Shown one piece after another: positions 3,382 through 11,788 of a DNA stretch of 48,356 nt. The notes under the pieces are model-generated. The model was given only the letters and a program-made list of their open reading frames with translations. It was not told where the DNA came from and ran no database searches. Numbering within the stretch: position 1 is the stretch's first letter; each line of letters begins with the position of its first letter. Origin of the DNA: Gammaproteobacteria bacterium (GTDB lineage: Bacteria; Pseudomonadota; Gammaproteobacteria; Chromatiales; Chromatiaceae); assembly GCA_030065815.1 (NCBI GenBank), contig JASJCU010000030.1, positions 1 through 48,356 on the forward strand, in the 5' to 3' direction. The translations under genes and the position numbers were made by a program.

Positions 3382-3633
3382 CGCTTCTCATCAATTCTTT
3401 TTATCACTCAAGGCCCGCTCCTGATCGCCGTGGCCGCACGAGTTGCCGAAGCTGCGACCTGGCGCATATTTCGGCAATCGCGCTGTGATATAAACCTCGT
3501 TCCTATCCCCGTGATGTGGTGCGGTGGCTGGGACCACCCGCGCCTGAGCACCCGGCCCCGTTGCCGCTCACCCGGCCATTCGCCTGGTGCCGTCGAGCAG
3601 CGCGTAAACCAAGCAGTAACAGGAGGACCCTGT

Positions 3634-5034
3634 ATGGAGTCACTGAAATCTTTCAATCGCACCGGTCTGGCGCTTGCGATCACGGTCGCAGCGGCGCACA
3701 GCTGGGCGCAACCGGTCGACGCGACCAAGACACTGCCGAACGCCAAGCCCGGCGAGTGTTATGCGAAAGTCGTGATCCCGGCGCAGTACAAGACCGAGAA
3801 CGTCGACGTCACGATGCGCGAGGCCTCGGTACGCTACGAGACCGTGCCGGCCAAGTACGCGATGGTCGAGGAGAAGGTCCTCGTCAAGGAAGCGGCGAAG
3901 AAGATCGTGCCGGTCCCGGCCGAGTACGAGGTCGTCAAGGAGACCGTCGAGCTCGCACCGGCGAGCAAACAGTGGCTCGCCGGCAAGTCGCGCAAGTCCA
4001 TGCCGGCCAGTCCGGCGCTGCTGGCATCGATCACGGGCAGCGGCGTCAAGCTCGACCAACAGCAGGTCGGTGCATGCCTCAGCGAGTACTACGTGCCGGC
4101 ACAGTACAAGCAGGAAGACGTGCGCGTGCTCAAGACCGCGGCCTTCGACAAGATCGAGGTCGAGCCGGCCGCGTACGAGTGGGCCGAGGAGAAGGTGTTG
4201 GTCAAGGAGGCCAGCAAGAAGATCGTCGAGGTCCCGGCAGAGTTCGAGACCGTGACCGAGAAGGTACTGGTCAAGCCGGCGACCACAGCGTGGAAGCAGG
4301 GTCGCGGCCTGGTCGAGCGCATCGACAACACGACCGGCGAGATCATGTGCCTGGTCGAGATCCCGGCACAGTACAAGACCGTCGAGCGCAAGGTCATCAA
4401 GACCGCGGCGACGACCAAGGAGGTCGAGATCCCGGCCGAGTACGCGATCCAGAAGGTGCGCAAGCTGGTCAAGCCGGCGCAGGAGCGTAGGGTCAAGATC
4501 GAGCCGACCTACGAGACCGTCAAGAAGACCGTCAAGGTCGCCGACGAGAAGTTCTTCTGGCACCCGGACTGGGAAGACAAGCCGAAGGCGCGTGCCACCG
4601 GCAACACCGTTTGCCTGCGCGAAACGGCGGCCAAGATGGCGACGATCGAACAGCGCAAGGTCAAGACCCCGGCGACGATCCGCGAGGTCGAGATCCCGGC
4701 CGAGTACAAGACCGTCAAGGTGCGCAAGCTGGTGACTGCCGCCGAGCAGAAGAAGGTCGATATCCCGGCCGTCGTCGAGACGGTCGCCAAGCGCGTCAAG
4801 GTCAGCGACGAGCGCCTCGAGTGGCGCAGCGTGCTGTGTGAGACCAACATCACCGGCCGCATCATGACCGACCTGCAGAAGGCGTTGAAGGACGCCGGCT
4901 TCAACCCCGGGCCGATCGACGGCCAGGTCGGTGCGCAGACCCTGCGTGCGGTCGACAACTACCAGCGCGCCAAGGGCCTGGAGCGCGGCGGCCTGACGCT
5001 GAACACGCTGGAATCGCTCGGCGTCAAGATCTGA
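3634..5034 (+). CDS. Secreted 23-residue-repeat protein with C-terminal peptidoglycan-binding domain
   Basis: A 466-residue exported protein; I do not recognise the repeat as a named family. The start ATG at 3634 follows an AGGAGG site, and residues 1-25 form a signal peptide ending AHSWAQ. Residues about 40-402 are four modules, each opening with a Cys (C42, C148, C239, C327) and ending near a Trp (W114, W220, W309, W397). Within a module a unit of about 23 residues recurs up to three times, resembling P-A-x-Y-x-x-V-x-x-K-V-x-V-K-x-A (P49, P72, P95; P155, P178, P201; P244, P267, P291; P355, P378). A fifth Cys (C402) leads into residues about 406-460, a PG_binding_1-like helical domain with GPIDGQVGAQTLRAV. 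It probably sits in the periplasm on peptidoglycan. It stands alone, with its own terminator. Confidence 0.8.
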   Translation: MESLKSFNRTGLALAITVAAAHSWAQPVDATKTLPNAKPGECYAKVVIPAQYKTENVDVTMREASVRYETVPAKYAMVEEKVLVKEAAKKIVPVPAEYEVVKETVELAPASKQWLAGKSRKSMPASPALLASITGSGVKLDQQQVGACLSEYYVPAQYKQEDVRVLKTAAFDKIEVEPAAYEWAEEKVLVKEASKKIVEVPAEFETVTEKVLVKPATTAWKQGRGLVERIDNTTGEIMCLVEIPAQYKTVERKVIKTAATTKEVEIPAEYAIQKVRKLVKPAQERRVKIEPTYETVKKTVKVADEKFFWHPDWEDKPKARATGNTVCLRETAAKMATIEQRKVKTPATIREVEIPAEYKTVKVRKLVTAAEQKKVDIPAVVETVAKRVKVSDERLEWRSVLCETNITGRIMTDLQKALKDAGFNPGPIDGQVGAQTLRAVDNYQRAKGLERGGLTLNTLESLGVKI

Positions 5035-5070
5035 TCGCAGACCCCGCGGCGTACGCACGTCGACCCAGCA

Positions 5071-5098
5071 GCCCCGCCGCCGTGCGGGGCTTTTTTTT
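5071..5098 (+). terminator. Rho-independent terminator after the repeat protein
   Basis: Stem GCCCCGC (5071-5077) / GCGGGGC (5084-5090) with loop CGCCGT, followed by eight T residues. It lies 36 nt after the stop at 5034 and is the clearest classical terminator in the left half of the window. Confidence 0.93.
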
Positions 5099-7661: not shown

Positions 7662-8112
7662 GGTCGGGCTCCGGATTGCACCGTCAATGGACTGCAGGCG
7701 GCTAGCCTACGACCTGTGCGGGAGCGGAGCAAGTCCCTGAACCCGATGCGTTTTCTGGCCGAGTATGAAGTTTTTTGATGGCTTGCCCTGGGTCGCGCCC
7801 GCGCGCGCTCGCCAGGCCGGCCCACAGCCGCGCCGTTACCCGGGAAATCGGCTGTGGTGGTGGCCATACCGCACTGGTACAGTCGGGTTTTCGAACGCGC
7901 CGTCCCCGCGCCTCGACGCCGCGGCATCTTGGCTGGCCGGGGTGACCGGCCGACAGGGACCGTCTAATCCGGTCCGGCCGGGACCGGCGGCGGCTGTGCG
8001 GCGAGCGGACGCGCGGTGGGCGTGCGCGGCCGAACCAACGCCCCGCCAGAGATGACGGGGCCGGGGCCCGGTGAGTGCCCCGATCTGCGCCAGGACGGCG
8101 CAACGAGAACGA
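7662..8112. other. Divergent intergenic region between the PCMT-like gene and thiC
   Basis: About 450 bp without a convincing coding sequence, between genes pointing away from each other, so it must contain both promoters. A TCTAAT hexamer at 7963-7968 is a possible -10 element for the thiC transcript, but no good -35 accompanies it at 16-18 nt. Nothing else stands out. Confidence 0.4.
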
Positions 8113-10135
<2,023 letters not shown>

Positions 10136-10660
10136 TCGCCCAAGTGTCGGTGATGTACACGGATCGCGGCGGCCGGCGCGCGCCGCGACCGGCACCCCGC
10201 GGCCGCTCGACCGGTCACCGGTTCGCGGGCAGCGATGTCGCGCCGGCGCGGGGGCGGCGCTACAGGGCCGGGGCGCACGGTCGCAGCGGCGACGGGATCC
10301 ATCGACAACCCTAGCCACGGGTCCACGCCGCGCCGTCGGCTCGCCGGCCCACCGCCGGCGCATCCGCAACGCCGCCGGGTCGGTGGAAACTGCGTCGCTG
10401 GCCGGCCGCGCGCGCCTGCGTGCCCGGCGCGCGGCGTTTCTGGCTGCGACGCCTGCGCGGCACGGCAGCGACGTCCGCTCGGGGACCGGCGCCGCTTCGC
10501 GCCTGGCGCCGCTCGCCGCTAGCGCCGGATACCTTGCGCGACGCACCAGCAACGTGCCGATGTGCACTGCGCTCGCAGCAACCGCCACGGCCCTCGGGTT
10601 GCAGTCGTCGTCGGCTGCCGGCACGCTGTCGGTCGAACCGAAACTGTGAGCCCGCGAACG
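10136..10660. other. 525-bp gene-free stretch after thiC
   Basis: Several reading frames stay open here on both strands, but their translations are Arg/Ala/Pro-rich and show no family motif, as expected of chance open frames in GC-rich DNA. One GC-rich inverted repeat (TCGCGGCG at about 10164 with CGCCGCGA at about 10181) follows thiC but has no U-run, so it is a weak terminator candidate only. Confidence 0.45.
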
Positions 10661-11788
10661 ATGACCGGTCCCGACCCCGCACTGCGCCGTATCCGCTGGA
10701 TCCTGATCGGCTCGGCGATGCTGCTGGTGTTGTGGCAGTCGCTTCCCTGGGTGCAGCGCCAGCTGATCCAGATCGACGCCGAGCCGCGCAGCGTCGCCGC
10801 GCGTGGCGACCTGGCCGCCGACGAGCAGGCGACGATCGCGATCTTCGAAAGGACCAGTCCGTCGGTCGTGTTCATCACGACACGCCAGCGCGTCGTGAAC
10901 ATGTGGACACGCGATGTCACGAGCGTCAGGCGCGGCTCCGGTTCCGGTTTCTTCTGGGACGAGTTCGGGCACGTGGTCACCAACAACCACGTCATCGAGG
11001 GCGCCTCCGAGGCGATCGTCAGCCTGAACGACGGCCGCAGCTACCGTGCCGTGCTGGTCGGCCGCAGCCCGGCTCACGACCTCGCGGTGCTGCGCATCAA
11101 CGTGCCGTTCGATCGCCGCCCGCCGATCCCGCTCGGTACCAGCGGCGACCTGCGCGTCGGCCAGAAGGTGTTCGCGATCGGCAACCCGTTCGGCCTCGAC
11201 TATTCGCTGTCCGGCGGCCTGGTCTCGGCGCTCGACCGGTCGATCGATGACGACGACGGCGGCAGGATCGAGCACCTGATCCAGACCGATGCGGCGATCA
11301 ATCCGGGCAATTCGGGCGGGCCGCTGCTCGACAGTGCGGGTCGCCTGATCGGCATCAATACCGCGATCTACAGCCCTTCCGGTGCGTACGCCGGTATCGG
11401 CTTCGCGGTTCCGGTCGACACCGTGAACCGGGTCGTACCGCAGCTGATCGCCGAGGGCCGCTACGTGCGGCCGACGCTCGGCATCTCGGTCGACGAGGAT
11501 GTCAATCGCAGGCTGGCGCGGCGGCTCGACGTCGAGGGTGTGGCGGTGCTGCGGGTCGAGCCGGGTTCCGGGGCGGACATCGCCGGCCTGCAGGCGTTCT
11601 CGGTCGACAGCGGCGGCGACATCGTGTCCGGCGACATCATTCGCGCCGTCGACGGCAAACCGACGACCGACGTCACGACGCTGCTGTCGGTCCTCGACAG
11701 CTACGCGATCGGCGACGTGGTGTCGGTCACGGTCTGGCGCGACGGTCGTGAACGGAGCGTGACGATTACGCTCGGCGGTGGCGGCTGA
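10661..11788 (+). CDS. Trypsin-like serine protease with PDZ domain (HtrA/Deg family, membrane-anchored)
   Basis: A 375-residue envelope protease. Residues about 11-30 form one N-terminal transmembrane segment not followed by a clear signal cleavage site, so the protein is probably anchored with its body in the periplasm, as in DegS. The S1C catalytic triad is complete: His110 (TNNHVIEG), Asp140 (AHDLAVLRI) and Ser218 (NPGNSGGPL). A single PDZ domain follows from about residue 270 to the end (GVAVLRVEPGSGADIAGL, GDIIRAVDGK). One PDZ domain and the anchor favour a DegS-like form over DegP, but an in-family role in RseA cleavage cannot be shown. ATG at 10661 was chosen; an in-frame GTG at 10646 is a close alternative. 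Confidence 0.88.
   Translation: MTGPDPALRRIRWILIGSAMLLVLWQSLPWVQRQLIQIDAEPRSVAARGDLAADEQATIAIFERTSPSVVFITTRQRVVNMWTRDVTSVRRGSGSGFFWDEFGHVVTNNHVIEGASEAIVSLNDGRSYRAVLVGRSPAHDLAVLRINVPFDRRPPIPLGTSGDLRVGQKVFAIGNPFGLDYSLSGGLVSALDRSIDDDDGGRIEHLIQTDAAINPGNSGGPLLDSAGRLIGINTAIYSPSGAYAGIGFAVPVDTVNRVVPQLIAEGRYVRPTLGISVDEDVNRRLARRLDVEGVAVLRVEPGSGADIAGLQAFSVDSGGDIVSGDIIRAVDGKPTTDVTTLLSVLDSYAIGDVVSVTVWRDGRERSVTITLGGGG

Follow-up and report, generated by a model that had tools for sequence, protein, structure and literature searches.

The window, i.e. the whole stretch of 48,356 nt analysed here (contig JASJCU010000030.1 of a gammaproteobacterium of the Chromatiaceae, assembly GCA_030065815.1), contains a repeat protein gene flanked by a KDO transferase gene and a GNAT gene (Table 1). 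The first-pass annotation had placed this gene between its own 5′ region and a terminator, and this placement held up, given the AGGAGG sequence, a conserved extended −10-like element and a hairpin followed by T7. The TGnTATAAA element, 140 nt upstream of the gene, was present in all four aligned upstream regions, the window included; despite this conservation, a sigma-70 consensus scan of the upstream region returned no site. The terminator scan produced 2 sites where 1.6 were expected from shuffles, and the hairpin at 5070-5091 is backed by its place and strength only. When four close relatives were compared (six pairs), dN/dS values of 0.13-0.28 were obtained and the changes were mostly synonymous; the repeat gene is under purifying selection. 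Elsewhere in the window, a TPP riboswitch was detected at 8110-8204 on the + strand (65.5 bits vs. 54.3) with thiC directly downstream at 8243, and positions 10562-11785 (+) encode a DegP-like trypsin-type serine protease with a PDZ domain.

Table 1. Features of the repeat protein locus in the window, and the Sel1-repeat and trypsin-like genes next to the repeat gene at other loci
Feature	Position	Strand	Basis
Probable extended −10, TGnTATAAA	3486..3494	+	Kept in near relatives
Ribosome-binding site AGGAGG	3621..3626	+	Sequence; ATG begins 7 nt further on
Repeat protein gene, 466 aa	3634..5034	+	ORF list and substitution analysis
N-terminal signal peptide, about residues 1-25, without lipobox	3634..3708	+	Read by eye; lipobox pattern negative
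Module 1, C42 to W114, units at 49, 72, 95	3757..3975	+	Self-comparison and register of units
Linker 115-147, possible short helix 127-136	3976..4074	+	Helix seen only in poor AlphaFold model
Module 2, C148 to W220, units at 155, 178, 201	4075..4293	+	Self-comparison and register of units
Inter-module link KQGRGLVERIDNTTGEIM	4294..4347	+	Kept in most homologues (alignments A1, A4, A5)
Module 3, C239 to W309, units at 244, 267, 290 (290 degenerate)	4348..4560	+	Self-comparison and register of units
Module 4, C327 to W397, units at 332 (degenerate), 355, 378 (degenerate)	4612..4824	+	Self-comparison and register of units
C402 of LCETN motif, fifth conserved Cys	4837..4839	+	Invariant in 23/23 rows of A5
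PG_binding_1 domain, residues 412-458	4867..5007	+	E 1.8e-8, over Pfam gathering cut-off
Intrinsic terminator-like hairpin, then T7	5070..5091	+	Terminator scan
Sel1-repeat and trypsin-like genes beside repeat gene	L132:6252-7718, L130:6606-8066, L131:7178-8479, L133:7136-8464, L127:6070-7272, L111:6621-8018

Self-comparison of the window protein gave peaks at lag 23 (z 7.8) as well as at lags 88 (z 7.7) and 106 (z 8.0), the latter two being the module-to-module distances. These peaks (0.22-0.30) were never reached by 500 shuffled controls, whose maximum was −0.10, and in a second run lag 23 had a z of 8.0, compared with −2.2, 0.7 and −1.2 for lags 22, 24 and 12. The repeat seen initially is thus real, but the 11-12 copies spaced 23-24 residues apart have to be corrected to twelve in-register units, which follow each other within a module always after 23 and never after 24 residues. 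Nine of the twelve start with PA.[YF]; units 9 (EPTY), 10 (AAKM) and 12 (PAVV) are degenerate. From 364 units in 34 proteins the consensus P-A-x-Y-[KE]-T-V-T-[EK]-[RK]-V-L-V-[KS]-[PE]-A-[ST]-[TE]-[KR]-x-x-x-[IV] was derived.

The units are arranged in four modules, as had been read from the sequence before, each opened by a Cys and ended by a Trp that is residue 20 of its third unit, and a fifth Cys (C402) closes the array. The Cys residues at the module boundaries were invariant in all 23 long and all 11 short homologue rows, and their number is odd, with five in long-form and three in short-form proteins, always one above the number of modules. Three of the four module-ending Trp residues were invariant across the 23 long rows, W114 was conserved in at least 90%, and four of these rows had an insertion at the inter-module link KQGRGLVERIDNTTGEIM.

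No credible match to the repeat region was obtained in Pfam, NCBIfam, PHROGs or PDB, in line with the earlier statement that the repeat is not a recognised named domain. Every database match better than E 0.003 covers either the lipoprotein N-terminus or the PG-binding tail; some of the tail matches extend back into the last repeats (e.g. endolysin family phrog_1493 at 306-454), and repeat-only matches were scattered singles with E 0.003 or worse. The open-licence PMC literature yielded nothing on this 23-residue repeat, nor did it contain the motif strings PAEYKTV, PAVYKTV, PATYKTV, TEKVLVK and GEIMCLVE. Among plasmids and phages the window protein had no match, and alignment A1 had no relative among viral contigs; the short-form repeat region matched no phage and one Methylobacterium plasmid, to which the queries L071 and L078 both led. 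On the basis of these searches, a phage or mobile origin of the family was rejected.

The peptidoglycan-binding tail proposed in the first-pass annotation was recovered as a PG_binding_1 domain (PF01471), scoring 34.8 bits where the cut-off is 23. Its closest solved sequences were SleB and an L,D-transpeptidase (E 0.001-0.002). The window protein resembles PG_binding_1 proteins (SleB N-domain, L,D-transpeptidases, endolysins) in this C-terminal domain; unlike them, it has no detected catalytic domain, the remainder being the repeat.

AlphaFold gave poor models both for the full-length protein with 4 rows (pLDDT 50, pTM 0.22) and for module 3 with 18 rows (pLDDT 49, pTM 0.22). The full-length model, which is unreliable, placed strands about 12 and 6 residues long in each unit, and the likewise unreliable module 3 model had strands only at its two ends. 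A test for alternating hydrophobic residues within the unit gave no significant signal (p 0.29 and 0.87). The array may adopt a beta-rich, rigid fold, and the protein may be elongated.

The window genome holds one copy of the repeat protein and no second one. Counting the window genome in each case, the protein was found in 14 of 56 genomes of relatives, in 13 of 96 family genomes (E <= 1e-6) and, as read from the match list, in 45 of 369 class genomes with a best match at E <= 1e-20; at E <= 1e-3, 130/369 class genomes matched, many of them through the PG domain alone. In the phylum sample, 28 of 398 genomes matched the short-form repeat profile, and among these matches are short proteins of about 130-240 aa that look secreted. 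The loci L069-L086, in other Pseudomonadota, code for short secreted-looking proteins carrying about four to six units each. None of the five secreted-looking relatives that were scanned (L068, L070, L071, L078 and L086; the short type plus one longer protein) had a recognised domain, PG-binding included, which suggests that the repeat has a role apart from peptidoglycan.

Two layouts dominate, a long form of four modules with three units each and a short form of two modules with four units each; module number across homologues therefore mostly follows these two patterns, with few expanded exceptions, and extra units were seen in L094, L013 and L068. Of the 23 long-form rows, 19 span 364-368 aa from GxC to the LCETN end and the other 4 span 390-397 aa. 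In the short form the repeat region is 218 aa throughout A4, whose 11 rows aligned gap-free, and likewise in G837 and G801. Distant members matched over 214-224 aa. Ten incomplete ORFs were left out of this sorting, and L049 (259 aa), first sorted as short, is a broken-off long form outside the 11 short rows. Array size therefore varies little, unlike that of a freely varying ruler, yet it is not strictly fixed. In G626 the unit is carried by L068:3-1148 (−) and the next ORF, one of which has many near-identical 23-residue copies. At L050 (G218) the member is broken up over two frames, the match containing a TGA, and this match appears at two places of G218 on opposite strands.

The export signal reported before is supported by an N-terminal signal peptide, read by eye only. 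The pattern search found no lipobox in the window protein, which is of the signal-peptide-only type, as are its near kin. A lipobox was present in 25 of 51 homologue rows checked; a 26th pattern match, in L046, was set aside since its Cys appears to belong to an ordinary signal peptide. All 25 lipobox rows have a residue other than Asp at position +2, and in all of them the first module is preceded by a segment of 58-94 residues, of which A, E, L, K, Q, R and M make up 44-71%. By the E. coli +2 sorting rule, a lipoprotein without Asp at +2 goes to the outer membrane. With this +2 residue and the stalk-like segment, the lipobox-bearing relatives look like outer-membrane lipoproteins with a PG-binding end, and sorting to that membrane is what their sequences would predict.

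An Lpp/OprI alanine-zipper model matched 12 of the 25 lipobox N-termini at E <= 0.05 (L014 scored 24.1 vs. a cut-off of 43). This match is unspecific, because models of the SA0632 lipoprotein (12/25) and of the flagellar collar protein FlbB (9/25) matched equally or nearly as often. A crude heptad test for coiled coils in the 25 stalks gave p < 0.05 in only one, and two unlipidated rows (L037 and L044) also have a long N-terminal stretch. Among 45 rows placed on a tree the anchor label switches three times, and the window protein belongs to two starred sets (4 and 7 rows) and one unstarred set (15 rows) made up of unlipidated rows only. Seven of the 14 class genomes carrying the unlipidated long form additionally encode a lipobox-bearing one (G043, G306, G196, G165, G373, G277 and G392), as read from printed N-termini, the SSGC of G392 being missed by the lipobox pattern; this count is without the second copies of G160 (N-terminus unreadable) and G346 (not retrieved). 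The window genome holds the unlipidated form alone.

The lipobox-bearing relatives resemble lipoproteins of the Lpp/OprI/Pal type in their stalk-like segment and PG-binding end, whereas the window protein differs from that type by its missing lipobox. Attachment to the wall is achieved by a C-terminal Lys in Lpp and by an OmpA-type domain in Pal, while in the repeat family the wall end is PG_binding_1, and lipoproteins of this type are not known to contain such a repeat array. Lpp (PF04728) scored over the cut-off in none of the 369 class genomes and below it in four, with the E. coli control detected and the OprI family outside this search. The absence of Lpp is general across the sample and does not single out genomes with the repeat protein.

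We also surveyed the neighbourhood of the repeat gene in 40 loci, in 39 of which a family gene was called (none in L099), genes being called by a crude longest-ORF rule. There was no general neighbour, as no neighbour cluster occurred in more than 6 of the 39 loci, and an operon partner was rejected on this count. Three Amidase_2 proteins were found among 73 flanking ORFs. In six of the 39 loci, from several families and in varying orientation, the repeat gene adjoins a gene for a Sel1-Trypsin_2 fusion (Table 1); judged by coordinates, the two are adjacent in G297 as well. The array could be regarded as a binding platform for another envelope protein, with the PG domain only placing it and the adjacent Sel1-trypsin protein as partner in some lineages. 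Ten class genomes matched the fusion at E <= 1e-59, G297 in its protease half only, and eight of these carry the repeat protein, compared with 45/369 overall (Fisher p 1e-6, uncorrected for kinship; the genomes are not independent, 5/7 families). However, 37 of the 45 repeat-bearing class genomes lack a fusion match at this threshold, two of the ten fusion-like genomes (G250 and G110) are without repeat protein, the genes lie on different contigs in G236, and in the window genome there is no fusion, the Sel1 and trypsin matches being separate. We consider a binding platform unlikely on balance, although it is the best placed of the alternatives.

Less likely still, the invariant Cys at the module boundaries may join the protein by disulfides into an oligomer or a network on the wall, the odd Cys pairing between molecules. 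The count of one Cys above the module number would suit such pairing, but it equally fits one free thiol beside intramolecular bonds. Disulfides of some kind may be present in the window protein. Membership in the epiplastin/alveolin/articulin membrane skeletons is by far the least probable alternative. These protist proteins share Val/Pro/charged tandem repeats with the window protein, the Val/Pro/Glu/Lys-containing units of which are possibly beta, and articulin-like proteins have been reported in Caulobacter according to PMC6212826. The same paper gives about 33% V+I and near exclusion of A and G as epiplastin criteria, and PMC4303705 describes a 12-residue periodicity for alveolins and articulins. 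The window protein, in contrast, has 18.5% V+I (vs. 33 ± 7%), 14.3% A+G (vs. about 1.4%) and 7.7% T (vs. 3%), i.e. it is rich in Ala and Thr, and its period is 23 and not 12 residues, as seen in the second self-comparison. A Pfam scan to E 5 gave six families, none of them alveolin. Moreover, it is bacterial, probably exported, and built of Cys/Trp modules with a PG domain. With both composition and period contrary, this identity was rejected.

We favour, with a probability of about 0.5, the reading that the window encodes a periplasmic, wall-bound protein that exposes a twelve-unit array of an undescribed repeat family and serves as a size-defined spacer or scaffold, its lipidated relatives being likely tethers between outer membrane and peptidoglycan. 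This reading draws on the exact repeat, the match to the PG domain, the conserved Cys and Trp residues, purifying selection and the lipobox-bearing relatives, and it is further favoured by the little-varying array length and by the genomes that hold both the unlipidated and the lipobox-bearing form. The poor structure models and the missing hydrophobic alternation speak against it. The window protein would be exported to the periplasm via its signal peptide, and the C-terminal PG_binding_1 domain would hold it on peptidoglycan; a periplasmic location seems likelier than the surface location that had also been considered. The four Cys-to-Trp modules of three units would form a structured array held out from the wall, where it may fill this spacer or scaffold role. 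In the lipidated relatives the same array would be flanked by a probable lipid anchor in the outer membrane on one side and the PG-binding domain on the other, linking outer membrane and peptidoglycan, whereas the window type, without lipid and stalk, would be fixed at the wall end only. Since a lipid anchor is missing from the window protein and its genome carries no further copy, the term tether is not directly applicable to it. Furthermore, the window genome has nine OmpA-type domains over the cut-off, so the repeat protein is not needed as the sole link between outer membrane and wall.

Somewhat more tentatively, we propose that the PAxY unit of 23 residues, set in Cys-to-Trp modules of three or four, represents a new envelope repeat fold of near-quantised size, and that the family includes a new class of outer membrane-peptidoglycan tethers of Gammaproteobacteria together with unlipidated, wall-bound partners. 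The repeat type is new to Pfam. In Gram-negative bacteria that lack Lpp, the attachment of the outer membrane to the wall is only partly understood. A widespread, uncatalogued repeat family of near-constant length, with a probable lipid anchor at one end and a PG-binding domain at the other, would offer a testable candidate for such a tether.
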